Position numbers and translations under genes: made by a program
Notes under the pieces: generated by a model
Told to the model about the DNA's origin: nothing
The model's database searches: none
What the model saw: the letters and a program-made list of their open reading frames with translations, nothing else
Source of the DNA: Bacillota bacterium
GTDB lineage: Bacteria > Bacillota > SHA-98 > UBA4971
Direction of reading: 5' to 3'
Assembly (NCBI GenBank): GCA_012518595.1
Contig: JAAYRV010000139.1
Location: forward strand, 1 to 32,621
DNA length: 32,621 bases
Shown here: piece by piece, positions 14,284 to 32,621 of the stretch
Numbering within the stretch: position 1 is the first letter of the stretch
How the letters are laid out: each line of letters begins with the position of its first letter

Positions 14284-15933
14284 TCACTCTCCACAGTCGA
14301 TACTTGACCGAATTTCGTAAATGCCATCGAGCGTCCCTCGGAGCGCAATATTGACCCATCTCGGCCTGTTACGAAGCTCATATCTTACTTCATAAAGAGC
14401 CTTCTCCAATTTGAAACATAACAGAAGCAGCTGAAAGTCACGGGGATCCTTAGGCAAAAGATGAGCGCAAGACCCACGCATTGCCTCCAGATACCCTTTG
14501 AGGAATCTCTCTCCTGTCCGCCTACCCCACTCTCTGGCGCTTTCCATCAACCGTTCCTCTTGATCAGGGAAATCATCCATACGAAAAGCCGCAGAATAAC
14601 CCGAATAGTCAAAAGACCTTAGCATCCCAGCCACGTCCCTTAAGGGACTGGACTTTCTTAACCTCTCACAGACAGGGCGCAACGGTTCTCCCTCAAAGTC
14701 AATAATCACAAAATCATAGGCGTCGTTCCTTCTTACTTGAAGAAACTGGCCGAGATGAAGATCGCCATGAATTCGAATCTTCATACCAAGATCATCCGAA
14801 TCTCTAAGAGCCTCCTCTACCCGGTGCAGACCCTTGAAAACAGTCCCTTTCCGTTTCAATGATTCATACACGTTGAGGGTTTTTTCGAGGGTCTCAGAAC
14901 ACAGGCTTGCCTGCCTCAATTCCTCAATCGTTATAGGAATTGCAGAAACTATGTTGCTGATCAGATCGGCTACATCCTCAGCCTTCATAGCTTCAGGGAC
15001 GAATTCATCTTCCTTCACACAAGACGAAGCCTGATGCAATCCTGCGGTAACCACTCCGAGACGGTCTTCGCGCAAACCAAAATCACGCCTGTAGTCATGG
15101 ACACCGCCATTATCGTCTCGTTGAGACGAGGAATCCTCCAACCGCATCTCGAGAAATCCCAAAGCATCCTCGCACAATATGTCCCACGCATCTCCTTCAT
15201 TTTCTACGAACTCCTGAATAAAGAAAGCAGGACACGTCACCCCTTGTCGTCCTGAATAGATACCATACCCCAAAGGACGTGGAATATTGGGAAAACCCGC
15301 CCTATCAAGGCTTTTACTTATTTCGATGTCCAAGGATGAGCCTGCCTGCAACCTTCGATATACCTTAATGACGTGGGATGAGTCTACCATTATCACGGTG
15401 TTTGTCGTATCCCTGTCATCGGCTACTACAGTATGCACCTGTGACTCCAAAACACCGGGCCCTGCCCAACTGAACCGAAGATGACCCTGCTTGGAATAAA
15501 TAACAGTCCCTGTCTTGACAGCGCCAAGCAGCGCAGAGGCAAAGGCCCCGGTGCTTGTAGCATCATGGACATACCCCACAAAATCCGAGCCGGTAACAAC
15601 AACAAGAGGCTCACGTTGAATCGCGTCCTCTGACTTGGTCACAAAGAGCGGGACATTGTAGAGATTTCTTTCGGCCTCCTCTTGAAACTCGCCTTCAGCC
15701 CGGGAGGTCGCTCCCATATTGAAGTCCACTGCAATAACGGCAATACCGACAATGGATTCTGCGTCTTGGAACAACGTAGCCCAATCGTATAAGGTCACTC
15801 TACTGATAGAAGCATCTTTTCTCTGAAGCCATCTCGCGCCGGCAAACCAGTCTAAACTGATCGTTGGCACAATAGAAGAGAGATCATGAATAATTTCCTC
15901 AAAAGGACGACGAGTATGCCAGATTCCCGGCAC
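14284..15933 (-). CDS. Maltokinase-like protein (Mak/Pep2 family)
   Basis: A 549-aa protein resembling maltokinases, which phosphorylate maltose to maltose-1-phosphate with ATP. Residues 1-170 match the N-terminal cap domain. The kinase-like fold follows: HVIKVYRRL with candidate ATP lysine K190, EFVENEGDAW (241-250), the catalytic-loop motif IHGDLHLGQ with D391, and the metal-binding segment IDFEGEP (411-417). It is a little longer than typical actinobacterial enzymes (about 450 aa). The GTG start has GAGGGGG a few bases upstream. It lies 44 bp after the plsY-like gene and directly before the GlgM-type synthase. In the known GlgE pathway these two enzymes supply maltose-1-phosphate for alpha-glucan building. 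A trehalose-synthase partner domain is absent. Confidence 0.87.
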   Translation of the reverse strand: MPGIWHTRRPFEEIIHDLSSIVPTISLDWFAGARWLQRKDASISRVTLYDWATLFQDAESIVGIAVIAVDFNMGATSRAEGEFQEEAERNLYNVPLFVTKSEDAIQREPLVVVTGSDFVGYVHDATSTGAFASALLGAVKTGTVIYSKQGHLRFSWAGPGVLESQVHTVVADDRDTTNTVIMVDSSHVIKVYRRLQAGSSLDIEISKSLDRAGFPNIPRPLGYGIYSGRQGVTCPAFFIQEFVENEGDAWDILCEDALGFLEMRLEDSSSQRDDNGGVHDYRRDFGLREDRLGVVTAGLHQASSCVKEDEFVPEAMKAEDVADLISNIVSAIPITIEELRQASLCSETLEKTLNVYESLKRKGTVFKGLHRVEEALRDSDDLGMKIRIHGDLHLGQFLQVRRNDAYDFVIIDFEGEPLRPVCERLRKSSPLRDVAGMLRSFDYSGYSAAFRMDDFPDQEERLMESAREWGRRTGERFLKGYLEAMRGSCAHLLPKDPRDFQLLLLCFKLEKALYEVRYELRNRPRWVNIALRGTLDGIYEIRSSIDCGE

Positions 15934-21309: not shown

Positions 21310-22182
21310 TCAAAGCAGTTCGGAAATAATGTCCACAACCTCATTCACCGTGTCCGCTACAGGGACGCCTGCCTCCTGAAACGCCTTTACCTTGGACTCG
21401 GCCGTCCCCATGGAACCTGATACGATGGCGCCGGCATGTCCCATTCGTTTGCCGGGAGGAGCAGTGCGTCCGGATACAAACGCTACAACGGGTTTTGTCA
21501 TACTACCAATGAAAGCTGCGGCTTCCTCCTCATCACGCCCACCGATTTCACCGATTAACACAATAGCATGCGTGTCATCGTCTTCTTCAAACGCTTCGAG
21601 GGAATCCACAAAAGTCGTGCCGATTATCGGGTCGCCTCCAATCCCTATACATGTAGACTGTCCAATCCCGCGGGATGAAAGAAGGCTTACCACCTCATAA
21701 GTCAGGGTGCCGCTCCTTGAGATCACTCCGATAGGTCCACGTTGGAAGATCTGTCCCGGCATTATTCCCACTGACGCTTCCCCACACGTGATAATGCCTG
21801 GGCAGTTCGGTCCGATTACCCTGCACCTCGACCCTTCCTTCTTTGCCTGATCCAGCATATCAATGACATCGAGGGTGGGAATACCTTCAGTGATACATAC
21901 GACAAGCTCAATTCCGGATGCAAAAGCTTCCACAACTGCGTCTTCGGCAGCTCTTGACGGCACAAAAACACACGAAGTATTGGCGCCTCGTTGTTCGACA
22001 GCCTCAGCCACAGTGTCAAATACGGGGATGCCTTCTACGTCCTGCCCGCCTCTTCCCGGAGTCACTCCTGCAACGACCACGTCAGGGTTATAGTCTCTCA
22101 TACGTAGCGCATGAAACCTTCCCTCGCGACCTGTGATACCTTGAACAACAAGCCTTGTATGCTTATCTACGAATATGCCCAT
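21310..22182 (-). CDS. sucD: Succinyl-CoA synthetase (ADP/GDP-forming), alpha subunit
   Basis: A 290-aa subunit that interconverts succinyl-CoA and succinate with ATP or GTP. It carries the CoA-binding Rossmann region ([11 protein letters not shown]), GPNCPGII, and the phospho-histidine H249 in [12 protein letters not shown]. Length is typical. Its ATG lies one base after the sucC stop, with GGAGGG inside the end of sucC as ribosome binding site. It is the last gene of a run that starts with hdrA. In this context it links succinate to 2-oxoglutarate via KorDABC, in either direction. Confidence 0.97.
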
Positions 22183-22183
22183 T

Positions 22184-23323
22184 CTACATCCCTCCCCCTG
22201 CGATTGCCACTATGCGCTTGGCAGCGTCAACCATGGTATCTGCTGTTACCACAGGCGTGTCGCGGAGAAGAGCCCGGCCTTCCTTCTCTCTCGTGCCAAC
22301 GAGTCGGACAACGACCGGGAGATCCAGGTTTACGCTTTCAATGGCTGTAAGGAGCCCTTGCGCTACTTCATCACAGCGAGTTATGCCCCCAAATACGTTA
22401 ATCAGGATTGCCTTTACAGCCTTGTCCATGAGGATCAGTTCCAAGGCGTTTTGGACTACTTCCGCCCTTGCGCCTCCTCCGATATCAAGGAAATTGGCAG
22501 CTTCTCCTCCTTCAGCCTTGATAGCGTCAATTGTCGCCATAACGAGGCCTGCCCCGTTTCCGATGACCCCTATATCCCCACCGAGCTTAACATATGTAAG
22601 CCTTCTCCTTCTTGCCTCCTGCTCCAGCGGGTCATCGCCCTCTGCCTCCCAAAGGCCTCCGTATCCGGGATGCCTGAAAAGAGCATTATCATCCAGGGTG
22701 ATCTTTGCGTCAGCTGCAACTACTTTTCCGTCCTTTGTAAGCATAAGAGGATTGATCTCGGCAAGCTCCGCGTCTTCCTGTTTGAACAAACGGAACAGGG
22801 ACGAAAAATACCCACCCACCTGAGTGATTACGCGTCCGTCGAAACCTGCCGACAAGGCCAAGGCTCTTGCCTGCCACGGCATGAAGCCTTCCCTTGGCGT
22901 CGTCCACACCTTGGCGATTTTCTCAGGGGTTTTAGCAGCGACTTCCTCGATGTCAACTCCACCCTCACTGCTGGCTATGATTGCAATTGATTTTTGCGAC
23001 CTGTCAACGGTCACGCCCAGATAATACTCTTTCACTGCTTCGACAGCCTGTTCTACCAGGACTTTCCCGACGGTAAGCCCTTTTATGTTCATCCCGAGAA
23101 TTCGCGAAGCCGCATCCCTCGCCTCCTCAGGAGTCTTCACCACACTGATACCGCCGGCTTTACCCCGCCCGCCGACATGAACCTGGGCTTTCACCACAAC
23201 ATGTCCCTTGAGCTCAGACGCTATCTCATACGCCTCATCCGGGGTCTCGGCAACCCTTCCGTGAGGAGTCGCAATGCCATAACGCCTCATAATCTCCTTT
23301 GCTTGATATTCATGGAGTTTCAT
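22184..23323 (-). CDS. sucC: Succinyl-CoA synthetase (ADP/GDP-forming), beta subunit
   Basis: A 379-aa ATP-grasp subunit: [16 protein letters not shown] at the start, [13 protein letters not shown] in the nucleotide-binding loop, the acidic [19 protein letters not shown] metal-binding region and a C-terminal flavodoxin-like CoA-ligase domain with [13 protein letters not shown]. The frame is open to a TTG at 23359, but the ATG at 23323 gives the conserved MKLHEY start, overlaps the end of korC by 14 bases and is preceded by a GGGAGGGAGG. Nucleotide preference (ATP or GTP) cannot be told by eye. Confidence 0.97.
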
Positions 23324-23876
23324 GCTTAGCTCTTGCCTCCCTCCCTCTCTCGAGACCAATGTTGAACGCTTTCATGTTCAGCTCTTCAGTTCCTCGGGGA
23401 ACCCTGGACGAAATAGCCTTCTCCATGGCATCAGGTGTCACTATACCGGTTACGCCGACAAGCGCGCCGAGGGCTACAACATTAGCCACTACCTGCCTGC
23501 CTACATCGTGCCTTGCTATTTCAGTAATGGGTAGGGTCACAACGCACGCGTCTTCCAGAGAGGGTATGGAACTTACGTTAGTGTCATCCACAAGAACAAT
23601 CCCACCTGGTTTTACGTGCTGTCCGTATCTGTCACATGCTTGCTGAGACATGATTAGAACAACATCAGGAGAAGTAACCTTAGGGAAGTCTATTACGTCA
23701 TCTGCGATGATAACCTCAGCCCGACTTGCTCCTCCGCGTGCCTCAGGCCCGTATGACTGCGTCTGAATCACGTCATAGCCGTCATAGACACCTGCGGCCT
23801 CGGCCAGAATTATGCCTGCAAGAATCAGGCCTTGCCCTCCTGTTCCGGAAAGTCGAATTTCCTTATACATCATCAT
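23310..23876 (-). CDS. korC: 2-oxoacid:ferredoxin oxidoreductase, gamma subunit
   Basis: A 188-aa gamma subunit of the four-subunit oxidoreductase. IRLSGTGGQGLILAG near the start, QTQSYGPEARGGASRAEVI in the middle and IVLVDDTNV mark the family. The start is one of three consecutive ATG codons that overlap the end of korB by 14 bases; the next two ATGs are equally possible. Its 3' end in turn overlaps sucC. These overlaps indicate tight translational coupling of korC to both neighbours. Confidence 0.93.
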   Translation of the reverse strand: MMMYKEIRLSGTGGQGLILAGIILAEAAGVYDGYDVIQTQSYGPEARGGASRAEVIIADDVIDFPKVTSPDVVLIMSQQACDRYGQHVKPGGIVLVDDTNVSSIPSLEDACVVTLPITEIARHDVGRQVVANVVALGALVGVTGIVTPDAMEKAISSRVPRGTEELNMKAFNIGLERGREARAKHETP

Positions 23877-24696
23877 CAGTCTCCTTGGTAGCAGCTTCGA
23901 TTATCGATTCGTAGCGCTTAGTATACTCAGGTCGAGCCCTTGTTCCGAGCTCGCCTATGATGAACTTGTCCTCTAATTCGTCAGGCGAAAGCCGGGACGC
24001 AGCCTTCTTGGTCACTGCATGTTCTTTCTGCCAGTCCAACATTACCAAAGCGTTTCTCATTTTGTTCCGGCGTCCGAAATATGTAGGACACTGAGATACT
24101 GCCTCCACAAAAGCAAACCCGTCTTGAGCTATTGCTTTGGCTATCAATCTGGAAAGGGGTGCAGCATGGTACGCAGTTCCTCGCCCCACAAAACTTGCTC
24201 CCGCAGCAAACACCAGCTCACAGAGGTCAAAAGGCTCCTCTATGTGTCCGTAAGGCGCAGTCGTCGCCATTTTCCCTGTTGGAGTCATAGGTGAATACTG
24301 GCCGCTTGTCATCCCATAGATGCTGTTATTGAAGCATATGGTTGTAATGTCGATATTCCGCCTTGCTGCGTGTATTAGGTGGTTCCCGCCGATAGCAGCA
24401 AGGTCCCCGTCCCCGGCCAGTACAATCACGTCGAGGTTAGGTTTCATCATCTTAATGCCTGTGGCAAATGCCAAGGCTCTGCCATGAGTTGTATGAAGCG
24501 TATCAAAATCGAGATAACCCGGCGCTCTTGATGCGCACCCGATTCCCGATACTACACAAACGTTGTTTTTATCCAGATTCAGTGAATCAATGGCCCGAAG
24601 GACAGCGCTCAGTACTATGCCGTGGCCACACCCTTCGCACCATATATGCGGCATCTTGTCCTCCCTGAGATAGTAGGTAATAGGTTTTCTTGCCAT
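23863..24696 (-). CDS. korB: 2-oxoacid:ferredoxin oxidoreductase, beta subunit (TPP-binding)
   Basis: A 277-aa beta subunit that binds thiamine diphosphate and a [4Fe-4S] cluster. WCEGCGHG with C20 and C23, C54 in GIGCASR, and the TPP/Mg motif GDGD (95-98) through NNSIYGMTSGQ (123-133) are visible. TTAPYGHIEEPFD follows, a segment typical of 2-oxoglutarate-type rather than pyruvate-type enzymes, although substrate cannot be proved. AAGGAGGT overlaps the korA stop region, three bases from this gene. Confidence 0.94.
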   Translation of the reverse strand: MARKPITYYLREDKMPHIWCEGCGHGIVLSAVLRAIDSLNLDKNNVCVVSGIGCASRAPGYLDFDTLHTTHGRALAFATGIKMMKPNLDVIVLAGDGDLAAIGGNHLIHAARRNIDITTICFNNSIYGMTSGQYSPMTPTGKMATTAPYGHIEEPFDLCELVFAAGASFVGRGTAYHAAPLSRLIAKAIAQDGFAFVEAVSQCPTYFGRRNKMRNALVMLDWQKEHAVTKKAASRLSPDELEDKFIIGELGTRARPEYTKRYESIIEAATKETDDDV

Positions 24697-24699
24697 GTC

Positions 24700-25842
24700 T
24701 TATACCTCCTTCAGCGCAGAGAGAATCTGTTGGGGAGAAATAGGCTCCGCATCGACCCTGGTAAGGCTTATGACTTTCGTCTTGCCCTTGGAAGCCCGTT
24801 CAACCTCACGAACCAACTGCCCCATATTCATCTCAGGGACAACTATTGCTCTCACTTTTGACGCAATTCTTTCCACATGTTCTTCTGGGAACGGCCACAA
24901 TGTCTTCACTTTCAGAAGGCCTGCGGAAACTCCCGAAGCCCTTGCATCTCGCACCGCTCTTGCACCTGCACGGGCAGTAATGCCATAAGCGAACACTGCG
25001 ATATCCGCATCTTCAGTCAAGACCTCGTCAACAAAGGTCACCTCTTGCTTCGCCTTATCCATCTTGCTGTCGAGACGTCTTATTAAGGCGTCTACCTCCG
25101 GTCTCTTCGTTGTGGGGAACCCTGTCCGGTCATGGGTGAGCCCGGTCAAATGGTACCTGTACCCCGTCCCAAAATCCGCCATAGGGGGAACCACGCCGTC
25201 CCCTGCATCAGCGTCAAACGGAAGATAATCCTCAGGCTTGCAACGAGGACGTGCTCTGTTGACTATATTCAATTCACCGGGATCAGGAATCGCAACCTTC
25301 TCCCGCATGTGTCCGATGACTTCGTCCATAAGAAAGATTACAGGAATTCTCCACCGCTCCGATATGTTGAAAGCCTCCACTATCAAAGTATAAGTCTCTG
25401 CGACTGAAGTCGGGCATAACACAACAACAGGATGGTCTCCGTGTGTTCCCCATCTGGCTTGCATGACATCAGCCTGGGAAGGAGCGGTGGGAACACCGGT
25501 GCTTGGCCCGACCCTCATGACGTTTACAATAACGCAAGGGACCTCTGCGATGGCGGCAAACCCAATACTCTCCTGTTTGAGGGAAAACCCAGGCCCGCTC
25601 GTGGCAGTCATTGATTTCGCTCCTGTGAGTGAAGCCCCGATTATCGCTGATATGCTTGCAATTTCATCTTCCATCTGTATGAATTTTCCGCCGACCTTTG
25701 GGAGTATGAATGCCAGTTCTTCCGCAATTTCCGTTGAAGGAGTTATGGGGTACCCGGCAAAAAACCTCATGCCTGCAGCGACAGCGCCTTCGGCACATGC
25801 CTCATTTCCTTGCATCAATCTTATGCTTGTCTTATTTCCCAT
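24700..25842 (-). CDS. korA: 2-oxoacid:ferredoxin oxidoreductase, alpha subunit
   Basis: A 380-aa alpha subunit with the pyrimidine-binding and core domains: RLMQGNEACAEGAVAAG, FFAGYPITPSTEIAE, the activating glutamate in QMEDEIASI, TSGPGFSLKQE and MRVGPSTGVPT. Together with KorB it oxidises a 2-oxoacid plus CoA to acyl-CoA, CO2 and reduced ferredoxin, or the reverse. The frame is open to 25899, but ATG 25842 has GGAGGT seven bases upstream and overlaps the korD end by 11 bases. The adjacent sucCD makes 2-oxoglutarate the most likely substrate. Confidence 0.95.
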   Translation of the reverse strand: MGNKTSIRLMQGNEACAEGAVAAGMRFFAGYPITPSTEIAEELAFILPKVGGKFIQMEDEIASISAIIGASLTGAKSMTATSGPGFSLKQESIGFAAIAEVPCVIVNVMRVGPSTGVPTAPSQADVMQARWGTHGDHPVVVLCPTSVAETYTLIVEAFNISERWRIPVIFLMDEVIGHMREKVAIPDPGELNIVNRARPRCKPEDYLPFDADAGDGVVPPMADFGTGYRYHLTGLTHDRTGFPTTKRPEVDALIRRLDSKMDKAKQEVTFVDEVLTEDADIAVFAYGITARAGARAVRDARASGVSAGLLKVKTLWPFPEEHVERIASKVRAIVVPEMNMGQLVREVERASKGKTKVISLTRVDAEPISPQQILSALKEV

Positions 25843-26116
25843 GGACACTACCTCCCCGGGCACCGGATCTCTCTTCCTTCCTGTCACCGGCAGGCACAAC
25901 TTGAATAGCTAAATCCGGGCACATGATCTCGCATATTCCACATCTCGTACAGTCTTCGACGCGCGCTACCTGCGCCTTTCCCCCTTCCGGCCTCTCCAAG
26001 ACATTCTTTGGACAGAATGAGACGCAAATATCGCATCCCTTGCACCATCTGTCGTTGATAATCACCGGCCGGCTGTCTCCGTCCACAACCGGACCGGCAT
26101 TGCCTGATTTTTGCAT
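25832..26116 (-). CDS. korD: 2-oxoglutarate oxidoreductase ferredoxin subunit (2[4Fe-4S])
   Basis: A 94-aa dicluster ferredoxin subunit. The two binding motifs are C25-C28-C31-C35-Pro and C56-C59-C62-C66-Pro, each of the CxxCxxCxxxCP form. It carries electrons between the TPP-dependent core and external ferredoxin. AGGTGG lies nine bases before ATG 26116; a GTG at 26122 is an alternative but is only three bases from the ribosome binding site. The order korD-korA-korB-korC is the standard one for 2-oxoglutarate:ferredoxin oxidoreductase. Confidence 0.94.
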   Translation of the reverse strand: MQKSGNAGPVVDGDSRPVIINDRWCKGCDICVSFCPKNVLERPEGGKAQVARVEDCTRCGICEIMCPDLAIQVVPAGDRKEERSGARGGSVHGK

Positions 26117-26158
26117 TGACACTCGCCACCTTTGTCTTATGATTTTCGGATACCTATG

Positions 26159-27796
26159 TCAAACTGCCGGATCAGCGCCGGGAACAGATTGATAACGCGC
26201 ATAGGGGGGCAAGAGGATAGGTGAAACCTTATCTGTCACAAGCCCTGCGTCCTCCAATTCCTTGTGATACCTGGATACATGAGCGAGGGAGAGCGCTCCG
26301 GGCTTTACATGTCGTGCCCTCTCCGCTCCGGCCATGCCTGCTCGTCTGCCAAACACGACAACATCAAGGAGGGAGTTTCCCATGAGCCGGTTCCGCCCGT
26401 GGACTCCGCCGGAAGTCTCGCCTGCCACAAACAGATTCTCCACTGTGGTTACGCTTGTGTCATCCCTTATGTCAACCCCGCCGTTTTGATAATGCAGTGT
26501 AGGAAACACCAGGATAGGTGTTTTTCTCATATCAATGCCAAACCTTGCATACTGACGGTACATTGCAGGCAAGGAGCGTAGAATCGTGCCCTCCCCGTGA
26601 ATGCGTTCTATCATGGGAGAATCCAACCACACCCCGTGTTGACCTGTCTCTGTGACAATCCCCTTCTTCCTATCGAGGCACTCACGGATTATTGCGCTGG
26701 ACACCGCATCTCTGGTTTCCAAGGGGTACACGAACTGTTCACCATGGATATTGACCAATTGTGCCCCGAGGCCCCGCACCTTCTCAGTGATGAGAAGGCC
26801 GACAATTTGCTCAGGATAGGCAGCACCCGTCGGGTGGAACTGGGTCGCGTCAAGAAACACTAAACGTCCGCCCAGTCGATAAGCCATAACCAATCCGTCT
26901 GCAGTCGCGCCATAGTGATTGGTGGTTGGGAAATCGTCAATATGAAGCCTTCCGAACCCCCCTGTGGAAATCACAACTGTTTTGGCCCTGACCACAAAGA
27001 ACTCCTTGGTCTCGAGATTCATAAGGACAGCCCCGCGGCATGCGTATTCACCGTCAGACAAGAGCTCTACAGCGGGGGAGAATTCGAGCACAGGGATTTC
27101 CCTGTTTCTCACTTCGTCCCTCAAAGTGCGCATAATCTCTGCGCCGGAATAGTCCCTTGCAGCGTGCATGCGTTTTCTACATGTGCCGCCTCCGTGTTGA
27201 GTGACCATGGTCCCGTCAGACTCTTTGTCAAACATGCACCCGAGGTCTTCCAGCCACTTTATTACCAAGGGAGCGTCATGGACAAGAGCTTTCACAAGCT
27301 CGGGCTTATTGGCGAAACCTCCTCCTCCCATTACGTCAAGGTAATGGAGGTTCGGCGAATCATTTGCCTTGTCTGCAGCCTGGATCCCACCTTGAGCCAT
27401 CATGGTGTTGGCGTCACCGAGCCTTAGCTTTGTTGCCAAGAGAACGTTTGCGCCTTCGGCGTGAGCCATTAGGGCAGCAGATGAGCCTGCGCCGCCTCCG
27501 CCTATGATCAGCACGTCAACGTCGTAGTCTATCTTGTTTAAGGGAAACTTGTCCGAATCCAGCCTGCTCCGGGACTCCAGAACATCCACAAGTTCATGCG
27601 GCATGACTGATCCTTTAGAGACACCGACTTTGATAGGACGCATTGTGTCAGGACGATAGTCAGGATGAAAATCTTCAAGGAGCTGCTGTTTTTCTTCGGG
27701 ACTGAGCCGTGCATGCCTTTCATCATACCGTTTCTGCCTGGTGGCTTCCACAGCCTGGATGAACTCGTTCATTTTAGGGGTATAAGACACATCCAT
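26159..27796 (-). CDS. Fumarate reductase / succinate dehydrogenase-type flavoprotein, non-covalent FAD form
   Basis: About 545 aa. An extension of roughly 95 residues (with LSPEEKQQLLEDFHPDYRPD) precedes the FAD-binding GGGGAG at 99-104; ordinary FrdA/SdhA proteins begin their FAD site near residue 15. Further family blocks are MMAQGGIQAA, HGGGTCRKRMHAARD, QFHPTGA with the substrate-binding His-Pro-Thr-Gly, PTLHYQNGGVDI and the C-terminal HGRNRLMGNSLLD. The usual His for covalent FAD (R-S-H-T in E. coli FrdA) is Asn here (D-A-N-T), so flavin is probably bound non-covalently, as in soluble thiol:fumarate reductase TfrA. The protein has no capping helix and no membrane part. Start: ATG 27796, seven bases after the previous gene's stop; a GTG six bases further on is possible. 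The direction of reaction cannot be read from sequence. Confidence 0.87.
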   Translation of the reverse strand: MDVSYTPKMNEFIQAVEATRQKRYDERHARLSPEEKQQLLEDFHPDYRPDTMRPIKVGVSKGSVMPHELVDVLESRSRLDSDKFPLNKIDYDVDVLIIGGGGAGSSAALMAHAEGANVLLATKLRLGDANTMMAQGGIQAADKANDSPNLHYLDVMGGGGFANKPELVKALVHDAPLVIKWLEDLGCMFDKESDGTMVTQHGGGTCRKRMHAARDYSGAEIMRTLRDEVRNREIPVLEFSPAVELLSDGEYACRGAVLMNLETKEFFVVRAKTVVISTGGFGRLHIDDFPTTNHYGATADGLVMAYRLGGRLVFLDATQFHPTGAAYPEQIVGLLITEKVRGLGAQLVNIHGEQFVYPLETRDAVSSAIIRECLDRKKGIVTETGQHGVWLDSPMIERIHGEGTILRSLPAMYRQYARFGIDMRKTPILVFPTLHYQNGGVDIRDDTSVTTVENLFVAGETSGGVHGRNRLMGNSLLDVVVFGRRAGMAGAERARHVKPGALSLAHVSRYHKELEDAGLVTDKVSPILLPPYARYQSVPGADPAV

Positions 27797-27803
27797 CCCC
27801 TCC

Positions 27804-28484
27804 CTATTCAGGCTCGATGTCCCTCTGGTTGTAGAGGGTTTCAAGTTCCGCCCGGGTGAATTCTGTCATTTCGTCAAGGCTCCGGTCAAATGCCCCATCC
27901 AGGATCTCGCCGACCCGGGACGCAAGATGTTTTGCCCTGGGCGCCACATGCCTCGCATAGAGTCTTCTTATGAGGATCGCAATGTTATACTGGACAGTCT
28001 CCGCGGGGCAGCGCGCTGCGCACAGGCCGCACATTAGGCAGTCAAAAGACATATCTGCAGCCCTCTCAATATCTCCTCTCATTGCGGCTGCCATATAATT
28101 CATGACATCCAGGTCTTGGGGGCATGCTTTGGTGCAAGTATTGCACCCTAAACACCTGGTAAGCTCAGGATATAGCTTTATTATGTCACTTAAGCCGGGA
28201 CGGAGCTTCTCTACGTCATACGTAGCCTTATTTGCAGGGAAAACAGGAATTTGAGTCAGGTACATGCCATCCTCAACCACTGTCTGGCATGCCAGCCCTA
28301 CCATTAGCCTGTAGTCGCCGGGCATTCGGTAGACTGTGCCACATGCGCCGCAGAACCCTCCGCGGCATCCACAACCGCGGATAAACTGATAACCTGCATG
28401 TTCCATGGCCTTCATTATTGTAAGGCCTTTTGGAACCTCATAAGCCTTCCCCATAATGAAGATTCTGACTTTCTCCTTTTCCAT
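27804..28484 (-). CDS. Fumarate reductase-type iron-sulfur subunit
   Basis: A 226-aa electron-transfer subunit. The N-terminal [2Fe-2S] domain has C38-G-C40-RGGF-C45-GA-C48 with C66 further on. A C-terminal helical domain carries two full CxxCxxCxxxCP motifs (C111, C114, C117, C121 and C149, C152, C155, C159), predicting two [4Fe-4S] clusters rather than the [4Fe-4S] plus [3Fe-4S] of standard SdhB/FrdB. It ends soon after and lacks the HdrB-like CCG domain that thiol:fumarate reductase TfrB carries. ATG 28484 is preferred; a GTG at 28493 is closer to the same purine-rich ribosome binding site. It presumably passes electrons between the flavoprotein encoded next and the FrhB/Hdr-type proteins encoded before it. 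Confidence 0.87.
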   Translation of the reverse strand: MEKEKVRIFIMGKAYEVPKGLTIMKAMEHAGYQFIRGCGCRGGFCGACGTVYRMPGDYRLMVGLACQTVVEDGMYLTQIPVFPANKATYDVEKLRPGLSDIIKLYPELTRCLGCNTCTKACPQDLDVMNYMAAAMRGDIERAADMSFDCLMCGLCAARCPAETVQYNIAILIRRLYARHVAPRAKHLASRVGEILDGAFDRSLDEMTEFTRAELETLYNQRDIEPE

Positions 28485-29632: not shown

Positions 29633-30064
29633 TCACGTAAACCATACAGCCTTCGCAGGATTGGGACCCAGTACCTTCAGGGAATCAACCATCTCTCGGA
29701 TGGTTTCTGCAAACAACGCGCCTTCACTTGCGCTGATAAACTTGAACCACACTCTCTCACTGCTAATGCCTAATTCATCCAACACTTCTCGCAAAACCGC
29801 CAAACGACGTCTGGCTTTGTAGTTTCCGCTAACATAATGGCAGTCACCTGCGTGACACCCACCCACCAGGACTCCGTCCGCCCCATCGAGCAGCGCCTTC
29901 ACGATGTACATGGGATCTACTGATCCCGAGCACATGACTCGGATCGGACGTACGTTTGAAGGGTATTGAATCCTGGATACCCCTGCAAGATCAGCCCCGG
30001 TATAAGTGCACCAATTACACAAGAAAGCAACAATTTTCGGCTCGAAGTCCACGGAAGCTTCCAT
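29633..30064 (-). CDS. MvhD/FlpD-type [2Fe-2S] electron-transfer subunit
   Basis: A 143-aa MvhD-family protein. Conserved cysteines are C16 and C19 in FLCNWCTYTGAD, C45 in VMCSGSVDP, and C70 and C75 in GGCHAGDCHY. In methanogens MvhD bridges a hydrogenase to HdrA; FlpD does the same for formate dehydrogenase. Here no hydrogenase or formate dehydrogenase large subunit is adjacent, and an FrhB/FdhB-like protein comes next. ATG 30064 is chosen, with GGGGGA six bases upstream, over the frame's upstream start at 30127. It lies 89 bp after hdrA. Confidence 0.92.
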   Translation of the reverse strand: MEASVDFEPKIVAFLCNWCTYTGADLAGVSRIQYPSNVRPIRVMCSGSVDPMYIVKALLDGADGVLVGGCHAGDCHYVSGNYKARRRLAVLREVLDELGISSERVWFKFISASEGALFAETIREMVDSLKVLGPNPAKAVWFT

Positions 30065-30153
30065 CTCGGTTCCCCCTCTTCCAATCCTCGGTACACCCCA
30101 TGCACACGGGGAAACAGGCAAAACCATAGTCTAGAATCTCCCAATGGCCGGTA

Positions 30154-32621
30154 TCATAAAACCGCCACATCCAGCGCAGCCAATAGCCTTCGCGCTTCAA
30201 ACCCGCGATGTTCCGCTGCCCCTCCCGGGCAAGCTACCTGGCAAGCACCGCACCCCTGACACCGAAACTCATCCACAACTGCAACGCGGGAGTCCTTATC
30301 AAGAGACCTGGCATCATACGGACATGTTTCTACACAGACTCCGCATCCTCTGCAAAACCTGGTCCTCACATCTGATATATTCTCTTTGGAATGCTCCACT
30401 CCTCTCCGCAACCTGACCGCTGCCCTTACAGCAGCTGCCTCTGCGGAAAGCAAAGCCTCGGTGACAGTGGTCGGAGCTCTCGCGGTTCCACACACATACA
30501 CTCCGGGTGTGAGAAAATCCGTAGGCCTCACCTTTATATCAGCTTCCGTGTAAAAGCCGTGCAGGTCAAAATCCACCCCTAATCCGGAAGCTAATTCAGG
30601 GTCGCCTGAACCTTGAACTCCCACGGACAGAACTACACGATCCGCAGGAATGTGAAGGAGTTCGCCAAGGCCTTCATCGTAAACTTCTACTACGGCGGAC
30701 TTACCACCGTCATCAGCAATAACTCCGGGGACGTTATTCTCCGCGTACCTTATGAATACCACACCCATATCCCTGGCCTGTTCGTAGAAGAGCTCATTGA
30801 ACCCTGAGGCCCTGATATCTCGATGTAGGACATATACTTCAGTTTCAGGACGGCAAGTCTTCATGCGAATAGCGTTCTTCAGCGCCTGCAAGCAGCAAAC
30901 CCGGCTGCAGTAAGGCCTTTCTGTGTCACGCGAGCCTGTGCACTGTATCATTACTACACTTCTAATCTCGCCCTCTAAATCCTCTAAGATAAGGCCGGCC
31001 TGATCAAGCTCTGCCTCAAACTCTGTTTGTGTGACAACCGGTGACATGAGCCTGTGCATGAAGGTCTTGGGCGCTTCACACTGAGTGCCGCCGGTAGCTA
31101 AGATAACCGCTCCGCACTGAATTTCCCCGGCGGGACCCTCTGAACCGGCCTCCTGACTCTGGATTTTTGCCCGAAATCCTCCGTCAGCCCGGGATATATA
31201 GGAAATTTCAGATGACACATGCGCTTCGATGAGAGGATCTTGTCTGATTCTTTCACTCAGTGTACTAACCAGGGCTTGAACATCCATACCTGAGAGAGAA
31301 CGCTTCACTGAGCGAGCCCTTCCCCCCAGTATAGGCGCGTTTTCAACAAGGTGCACCCTATGGCCTAAGTCAGCCAAAGCTTTGGCTGCCCTCATCCCTG
31401 CAATACCCCCGCCGATTACCAATGCACCTTCCAACACAGGCCGTACCTTCTTAGTAAGGGGATTCCCATAACGAGCTTGTTCTATTGCCATTGCCACAAG
31501 ACCCAAGGCTTTTTCCGTAGCGAACCCGCTATCCCTGTGTACCCAGGCGCATTGTTCACGGATGTTGGCGACCTCCAGGAGCCCTCTCTTTATTCCAACC
31601 TCCTGAAGCCTCTCCTCCAAGACCCGGGTAACGTCTCTTGGCGAGCATCCGGCTATTATCACTTTGTCCACAGGCTCCTGTCTAACAGCCGTCTGCAGCG
31701 CCCGAATACCCGCATCCATACAGATATCAGGAATCTCCATTGCAGTTACGACTCGATCTTGCTCCTTTGCCCAGTTGACAATCTTGTCAACATCCAGACC
31801 GTCCAAGGAGGATTTGCACCTGCACACGAAAACACCGATTCTATCCCCGTCTGTCTCTCTTTCGGCGTCGGCGTCGGCGTCACCTGCGATCCGCATAGAT
31901 CCGAACCCTTGCGCCGGCTGACTCTCCAGCGCGTCCTTCAAGGCGTAGAGAGCGCACGCCCCTGACCATATGATTGCAGTTGGAATATCCTGCGGCTCAA
32001 CACCACCGCCACATACGTATATTCCTTCCCTCTCTGTCGAAACCGGAGAAAATCCGGTGGCATCTCTGCCGAGATACCCAAACAGCCCTTTCTCAACCCT
32101 CAAAGCCTGTGATAATTCGTCAATTCCGTCAGGCGGGGTAAAACCTGTTGCGAGCACAGCCAAATCGAACTCTTCAGTTGATACTGCCCCATCCGTCTCT
32201 ACGGGGATATATACATATTCATCCCCGGGCTCGATTGAAGAGACTCTACACGGCACAAATTCCACACCCAGGCCTCTGGCTCTTTCATAGTACTCCTCAA
32301 ACCCTTTCCCACATGCCCTTATGTCCATGAAAAAAATCTTTACAACCGCGTCAGGCATCAACTCCTTAAGTCTCATGGCATCTTTAATCGCATACATGCA
32401 GCACACAACTGAACAATAGGGCGCCTCCCCCGTCCTGTCGCGAGAGCCCACACATTGAACAAAAGCTATTCGCTTTGGAATTCTACGGCGAGACCCACAG
32501 ATCAACATGCCCCCTGTCGGGCCCGACGGACTGATGAGCCTTTCCAGTTCCAGCCCGGTAATGACGTTGTCAGTGAAGCCATATCCATATTCTCTGCGCG
32601 TCAGAGGGTCATAATGGCCCA
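30154..32621 (-). CDS. HdrA-type flavin/iron-sulfur protein, tandem double module, 5' end outside the window
   Basis: The frame stays open to the right edge, so 821 residues are visible and the N-terminus is missing (at 32508 there is only an internal Met; positions below count from it). The visible part has two HdrA modules. Module 1 (end only) contains QCVGSRD (18-24), YCSVVCC (31-37) and an FAD C-terminal segment to about 200. An acidic Asp/Ala linker (208-222) follows. Module 2 is complete: the N-terminal domain with GVFVCRCKSSL (225-235) and ANIREQCAWVH, FAD motif GGGIAG (366-371), QCTGSRD (522-528), YCSRVCC (533-539), and a C-terminal ferredoxin domain with C719-C722-C725-C729 and C750-C753-C756-C760. 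HdrA houses the bifurcating flavin in heterodisulfide reductases. The partner here appears to be MvhD plus the FrhB-like and fumarate-reductase proteins. Confidence 0.9.
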   Translation of the reverse strand, partial: GHYDPLTRREYGYGFTDNVITGLELERLISPSGPTGGMLICGSRRRIPKRIAFVQCVGSRDRTGEAPYCSVVCCMYAIKDAMRLKELMPDAVVKIFFMDIRACGKGFEEYYERARGLGVEFVPCRVSSIEPGDEYVYIPVETDGAVSTEEFDLAVLATGFTPPDGIDELSQALRVEKGLFGYLGRDATGFSPVSTEREGIYVCGGGVEPQDIPTAIIWSGACALYALKDALESQPAQGFGSMRIAGDADADAERETDGDRIGVFVCRCKSSLDGLDVDKIVNWAKEQDRVVTAMEIPDICMDAGIRALQTAVRQEPVDKVIIAGCSPRDVTRVLEERLQEVGIKRGLLEVANIREQCAWVHRDSGFATEKALGLVAMAIEQARYGNPLTKKVRPVLEGALVIGGGIAGMRAAKALADLGHRVHLVENAPILGGRARSVKRSLSGMDVQALVSTLSERIRQDPLIEAHVSSEISYISRADGGFRAKIQSQEAGSEGPAGEIQCGAVILATGGTQCEAPKTFMHRLMSPVVTQTEFEAELDQAGLILEDLEGEIRSVVMIQCTGSRDTERPYCSRVCCLQALKNAIRMKTCRPETEVYVLHRDIRASGFNELFYEQARDMGVVFIRYAENNVPGVIADDGGKSAVVEVYDEGLGELLHIPADRVVLSVGVQGSGDPELASGLGVDFDLHGFYTEADIKVRPTDFLTPGVYVCGTARAPTTVTEALLSAEAAAVRAAVRLRRGVEHSKENISDVRTRFCRGCGVCVETCPYDARSLDKDSRVAVVDEFRCQGCGACQVACPGGAAEHRGFEARRLLAALDVAVL

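Follow-up and report, generated by a model that had tools for sequence, protein, structure and literature searches.

A putative soluble fumarate reductase encoded with a probably electron-bifurcating Hdr-like complex in a Bacillota bacterium

The stretch of Bacillota DNA analysed here (the window, 32,621 nucleotides) carries on its reverse strand a run of genes for an HdrA protein (HdrA2), MvhD, an FlxC-like protein, a fumarate reductase-like iron-sulfur subunit (FrdB) and flavoprotein (FrdA), 2-oxoglutarate synthase (KorDABC) and succinate-CoA ligase (SucCD; Table 1). The order with SucD after SucC is repeated in four other loci (L019-L022). The window stops inside the gene for HdrA2, and its final 127 bases are exactly those with which another contig of the same genome (C55) begins. 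Beyond these, C55 carries the rest of the HdrA2 gene and then genes for HdrA1, HdrB, HdrC, malic enzyme and a TRAP transporter; in congeners and other genomes of the family, too, MvhD is preceded by HdrB, HdrA1 and HdrA2. The overlap, the fit between the two parts of HdrA2 and the gene order of relatives, which is the same, suggest that the window joins C55; the order of the joined operon is MaeB-HdrC-HdrB-HdrA1-HdrA2-MvhD-FlxC-like-FrdB-FrdA-KorDABC-SucCD. HdrB on C55 has two full CCG motifs and HdrC two 4Fe-4S motifs; HdrA, HdrB, HdrC and MvhD, the gene set of an HdrA-type electron-bifurcating complex, are thus all encoded. Fifteen cysteines are invariant between the FlxC-like protein and the protein that takes the FlxC position in clostridial operons. 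FlxA and FlxB were not found between HdrC and FrdA of the joined operon, and a membrane C/D subunit was not found in the FrdAB operon. In one congener (L021, 12255-15551), the HdrA2 gene contains a string of N with repeated sequence on its flanks, which probably marks a gap in the assembly. Elsewhere in the window, a 549-aa frame (14287-15933) with no Pfam match overlaps a glycosyltransferase gene and adjoins a glycerol-3-phosphate acyltransferase gene.

Table 1. Positions in the window of the operon genes and of the features of FrdA and FrdB
Feature	Coordinates	Strand	Basis
SucD, succinate-CoA ligase alpha	21310..22182	-	translation and position after SucC
SucC, succinate-CoA ligase beta	22184..23359	-	NF001913 above cut-off
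KorC	23310..23876	-	profile match
KorB	23863..24696	-	profile match
KorA	24700..25899	-	NF006412 above cut-off
KorD, ferredoxin-like subunit of 2-oxoacid oxidoreductase	25832..26122	-	profile match
FrdA-like flavoprotein, 545 aa	26159..27796	-	profile matches, tree, dicarboxylate-site residues all kept
Asn130 codon at FAD-linking His position of FrdA	27407..27409	-	Asn in 88/89 family members
N-terminal extension of FrdA, residues 1-92, family-specific, without known domain	27521..27796	-	kept in 89/89 members
FrdB-like iron-sulfur subunit, 226 aa	27804..28484	-	motif and residue comparison
Second CxxCxxCxxxCP motif of FrdB, CLMCGLCAARCP at residue 149	28005..28040	-	3Fe-4S type in E. coli
First CxxCxxCxxxCP motif of FrdB, CLGCNTCTKACP at residue 111	28119..28154	-	
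[2Fe-2S] ligand stretch of FrdB, C40-C66	28287..28367	-	ligands C40/C45/C48/C66
FrhB-like/FlxC-like iron-sulfur protein, 364 aa	28499..29593	-	FrhB_FdhB_C (just below cut-off) and Fer4
MvhD/FlxD	29633..30127	-	PF02662
HdrA2, 5' part cut by contig end, continues on C55 of the same genome (G000)	30154..32619	-	HdrA profiles

The FrdA frame starts at an ATG directly behind AGGGAGGGG, 7 nt past the FrdB stop, and is covered by PF00890 (FAD_binding_2) from residue 96. Its best NCBIfam profile was TfrA (330 bits, curated cut-off 718); scores to TIGR01812 (FrdA/SdhA) and NadB were 266 bits (curated cut-off 567.3) and 264 bits (cut-off 453), and AprA was not among the 25 best matches listed. When 61 genomes, its own and those of relatives, were searched, 17 had a full-length match, extension and all, at 56-100% identity, after which the score dropped from 645 to 210 bits. 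A wider genome scan gave at least 581 confirmed relatives, including gut Blautia, Dorea and Ruminococcus; the 80 kept came mostly from Clostridia and Chloroflexota, with some from archaea and others. In a tree with E. coli FrdA/SdhA and NadB as references, the family formed a single clade (support 100/98) apart from these references. Counts of residues, lengths and extensions were made on 89 extracted family sequences, all of which have the His/Thr/Glu/Arg/His/Arg dicarboxylate-site set of fumarate reductases in the broad sense (H321, T337/E338, R341, R362, H435 and R470). The motif HYQNGG is specific to the family (N438 in 89/89, Q437 in 88/89), and most members have His201 within the stretch that holds the NadB Glu motif. 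L-aspartate oxidase (NadB) was considered and rejected as an identity for FrdA on the basis of the separate clade, the score below cut-off, and the replacement of the active-site Glu (EGG/EGAHS motif) by QHGGGT.

As the initial annotation had noted, the FAD-linking His is missing. By residue comparison Asn130 aligns with this His in E. coli FrdA and SdhA, and all but one of the 89 members have the same Asn; the FAD of FrdA is therefore likely to be bound non-covalently. Most proteins of the phylum that resemble L-aspartate oxidase likewise have Asn at this position. The sole family member with His there (DAHTMM) is that of locus L094.

The annotation had also placed about 95 residues ahead of the FAD motif, and such an extension is real: 94 residues precede the GGGGAG motif of FrdA, and 94-101 do so in all 89 sequences, whether from Clostridia, Chloroflexota or archaea. 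An artefact of start-codon choice, which was raised with the original claim, is ruled out by this conservation, by the differences between congeners within the extension, which fall mostly at third codon positions (e.g., 8, 3 and 24 at positions 1, 2 and 3), and by the confident fold of the AlphaFold model (mean pLDDT 83.5; block means of 84-95 for residues 11-90), in which the extension forms two helices, short strands and a helix. The best structural match of the model was E. coli FrdA (1kf6). We rejected the extension as a known domain, as no Pfam family scored above cut-off in the residues before PF00890 and the extension profile (A4) found no convincing relative in Pfam or the PDB. A module used outside FrdA was likewise rejected after a survey of 200 genomes of the phylum, in which every frame carrying the extension was 537-675 aa long. 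At the other end of the protein, the tail after the RNR..NS motif has a median of 62 residues in the 89 family sequences, whereas the tails of E. coli NadB, SdhA and FrdA run to 149-206; relative to FrdA/SdhA, about 100 residues are missing from the C-terminus of the family. The extension is a part of FrdA, folded and specific to the family, whose presence goes with the loss of most of the C-terminal domain normally seen, and it is a ready marker for the family. The earlier suggestion that it docks to Hdr or FrhB partners is weakened, because members with no Hdr or Flx genes nearby (L015, L017, L018, L031, L035, L037, L038, L064 and L073) keep it. Since all members retain it in varied contexts, FrdB or the FrdA core seems more likely than Hdr or FrhB to be its conserved partner.

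FrdB has a set of [2Fe-2S] ligands and, as previously noted, two full CxxCxxCxxxCP motifs, which occur in 82 of 85 family FrdB sequences; in E. coli FrdB/SdhB, unlike here, the second Cys is missing from the last motif (3Fe-4S type). FrdAB resembles quinol:fumarate reductase (FrdABCD/SdhABCD) in its flavoprotein, its FrdB family and its active site, and differs in having neither membrane subunits, nor the FAD-linking His, nor the 3Fe-4S ligand set, and in the N-terminal extension and shortened C-terminus of FrdA.

FrdAB had been said to fit neither a quinone-linked FrdABC nor a thiol:fumarate reductase (Tfr), and this claim was supported in part, as was a link to Hdr. The scores below the curated cut-offs for TfrA, FrdA/SdhA and NadB and the separate clade agree with it. 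A soluble, non-quinone-linked enzyme is supported by the lack of a membrane subunit in the operon and by UbiA prenyltransferase, which was not found in any of the seven genomes of the genus; UbiA is present in 6/6 genomes of a sister genus (g2) that has the same operon. The contrast with Tfr had been drawn from a missing CCG domain. FrdB itself indeed has none, but the operon encodes the domain in a gene of its own outside the window, that of HdrB, which had been missed because the contig ends within the operon. With a CCG-bearing HdrB encoded upstream, the system resembles a Tfr in separate pieces combined with a bifurcation module. Methanogen TfrB unites an HdrB-like and an FrdB-like part in one polypeptide; a 1998 paper by Heim et al. 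is cited in PMC6315080. Methanogen TfrAB and the present system thus both pair FrdB with an HdrB-type CCG part, which here is a separate gene not fused to FrdB, and the window operon adds HdrA, MvhD and FlxC-like proteins. Similarly, the operon shares HdrABC, MvhD/FlxD and an FlxC-like protein with FlxABCD-HdrABC of Desulfovibrio, and differs in having FrdAB and a second HdrA and no FlxA or FlxB.

Gene neighbors were counted at 62 family loci with at least 8 kb of upstream sequence, which are best matches and not a random sample. FrdB was present in 62/62, HdrB in 50, HdrC in 49, MvhD in 46, an FlxC-like protein in 44, and FlxA and FlxB in 36. The order of FrdAB and Hdr genes is conserved across phyla, and fumarase, malic enzyme or SucCD are neighbors of FrdAB in many loci. 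In gut Clostridia, HdrB, HdrC, HdrA, MvhD, FlxC, FlxB, FlxA, FrdB and FrdA form a single run, with fumarase before or after it; the Flx names in clostridial loci were assigned by gene order and sequence, following the Flx operon. Chloroflexota loci such as L062 and L082 resemble the window type in having a large HdrA2 and no FlxAB. A minimal HdrC-HdrB-FrdB-FrdA unit, with no HdrA gene directly beside it, occurs in five loci (L014, L023, L024, L028 and L032). At the nine loci listed above there are no Hdr genes nearby, and in three of these (L015, L035 and L038) FrdAB is accompanied by malic enzyme and fumarase only. FrdAB adjoins NapC-type (c-type) cytochromes in L017 (4079-7016) and stands beside a membrane cytochrome b/iron-sulfur protein in L018 (6653-7642), with a similar match in L064. 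Because some members have no Hdr genes nearby and a few adjoin a cytochrome, FrdAB seems modular, and its tie to bifurcation need not always hold.

Judged from its genes, the Hdr-like complex encoded with FrdAB is probably electron-bifurcating, and we lean towards the view that FrdAB is a soluble fumarate reductase not linked to quinone and acts as the high-potential acceptor of that complex. In the scheme that we infer, as regards complex formation, donor, bifurcation, electron path and direction alike, a mid-potential donor (NADH or another carrier) would reduce the FlxC-like protein and MvhD, and electrons would be split at the FAD of HdrA. The high-potential branch would run through HdrC, HdrB, FrdB and FrdA to fumarate; low-potential electrons on the other branch would reduce ferredoxin, which in turn would supply KorDABC. 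Fumarate would thereby be converted to succinate by FrdAB, to succinyl-CoA by SucCD and to 2-oxoglutarate by Kor, in one co-encoded reductive TCA arm, and fumarate reduction may meet part of the cost of the strongly reducing electrons that the next enzymes of the reductive cycle require. From textbook potentials, the reaction of 2 NADH and fumarate with ferredoxin reduction yields about -33 to -43 kJ/mol. Reductive synthesis of 2-oxoglutarate makes sense because citrate synthase (PF00285) was not found in 13/13 family genomes, although they may have a Re-citrate synthase, which belongs to another family; the arm is likely to be the route to glutamate in these bacteria, and the proposed coupling, if true, helps explain such synthesis in genomes with no detected citrate synthase. 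Fumarate reduction is usually seen as quinone respiration; if a soluble, widespread family links it to the reduction of ferredoxin, the energy accounting of succinate formation in anaerobes would change. Against bifurcation, the NADH-entry genes FlxA and FlxB are outside the operon (a separate copy is on contig C247 of the same genome), with another HdrCBA elsewhere in the genome. A bolder version, in which a single physical complex with two HdrA, no FlxAB and a non-NADH donor bifurcates electrons from fumarate reduction straight into 2-oxoglutarate synthase, strikes us as doubtful; if true, it would make a self-powered reductive TCA arm.

On the other hand, the operon could run oxidatively, with imported dicarboxylate or glutamate passing through 2-oxoglutarate, Kor, SucCD, FrdAB (as a succinate dehydrogenase), fumarase and malic enzyme to pyruvate, and Hdr confurcating the electrons of both succinate and reduced ferredoxin onto a mid-potential carrier. 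The upstream malic enzyme and TRAP transporter genes fit this catabolic direction as well, being contiguous with those for Hdr, FrdAB, Kor and SucCD, and the genome encodes a fumarase. We nevertheless consider this direction unlikely, since at standard potentials confurcation would cost about 33-43 kJ/mol and the failure to find PF00285 favors a biosynthetic arm. Further, a published account (PMC9557727) describes relatives with non-covalent FAD as able to reduce fumarate and unable to oxidize succinate. The flavin type, the energetics and the missing citrate synthase together favor the reductive direction.

Electrons might also reach FrdAB with no bifurcation at all. If HdrB oxidized a soluble dithiol and FrdB/FrdA reduced fumarate, the enzyme would be a split thiol:fumarate reductase, as the five minimal HdrC-HdrB-FrdB-FrdA units and the TfrA profile would allow; the operon's two HdrA, MvhD and FlxC-like protein speak against this, and we know of no reason to expect CoM or CoB in Bacillota, so that it appears improbable. 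FrdAB could instead be merely co-transcribed with Hdr and draw electrons directly from ferredoxin or another soluble donor, which the family members with no Hdr neighbors, and an FrdB whose two 4Fe-4S clusters could accept from ferredoxin, make conceivable; the order with Hdr conserved across phyla makes it very improbable. That the substrate is another unsaturated dicarboxylate, as HYQNGG and the usual His201 might hint, can hardly be right given the full conservation of the fumarate-site residues and the frequent fumarase, malic enzyme or SucCD neighbors.

The FrdAB-Hdr operon is a variant of a kind already proposed. In Pseudoclostridium thermosuccinogenes, PMC7282089 describes a proposed link of fumarate reductase to ferredoxin through Flx-Hdr, citing a 2019 preprint by Koendjbiharie and van Kranenburg for the bifurcating proposal, and reports that the succinate operon (fumarate hydratase, Flx-Hdr and fumarate reductase) was up about fourfold under CO2 limitation. 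By this description, that operon also combines fumarate reductase with a bifurcating Flx-Hdr, and its order matches that of clostridial family members such as L045 and L050; the window operon differs in having a second large HdrA and no FlxA or FlxB, and in its connection to Kor, SucCD and malic enzyme where the other has fumarase. Relatedly, tfrAB, korABCD and flxABCD-hdrABC are interspersed in tubeworm symbionts and Thioflavicoccus, for which direct electron hand-over was proposed (PMC6315080). These clusters, as described there, mix fumarate reductase, 2-oxoglutarate synthase and Hdr genes as here, but their hosts are Gammaproteobacteria with ATP citrate lyase and Flx. What appears new is the double-HdrA form with no FlxAB; its joining to Kor, SucCD and malic enzyme, and the FrdA extension with the shortened C-terminus, were not found in the literature passages on such systems, although the 2019 preprint may describe some of this.

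Two further pathways were considered and rejected for this genome (91.67% complete): propionate oxidation by methylmalonyl-CoA, as the mutase was not found, and a Wood-Ljungdahl link, as the CdhC domain was not found. The genome also carries a separate classic set, split between contigs C22 (L113; HdrC-HdrB-HdrA) and C247 (L117; HdrA end-MvhD-FlxC-FlxB-FlxA). A second FrdA-like flavoprotein (C101, L112, 1016-8211), with no FrdB, has Phe in place of the substrate His and lacks the FAD-linking His; its neighbors are a desuccinylase-like gene, two fumarase-like pairs and an MmgE/PrpD-like gene. A third (C137, L111, 1346-3043) scores 486 bits to TfrA, has Tyr at the substrate His position and stands alone between symporter-like and peptidase-like genes.
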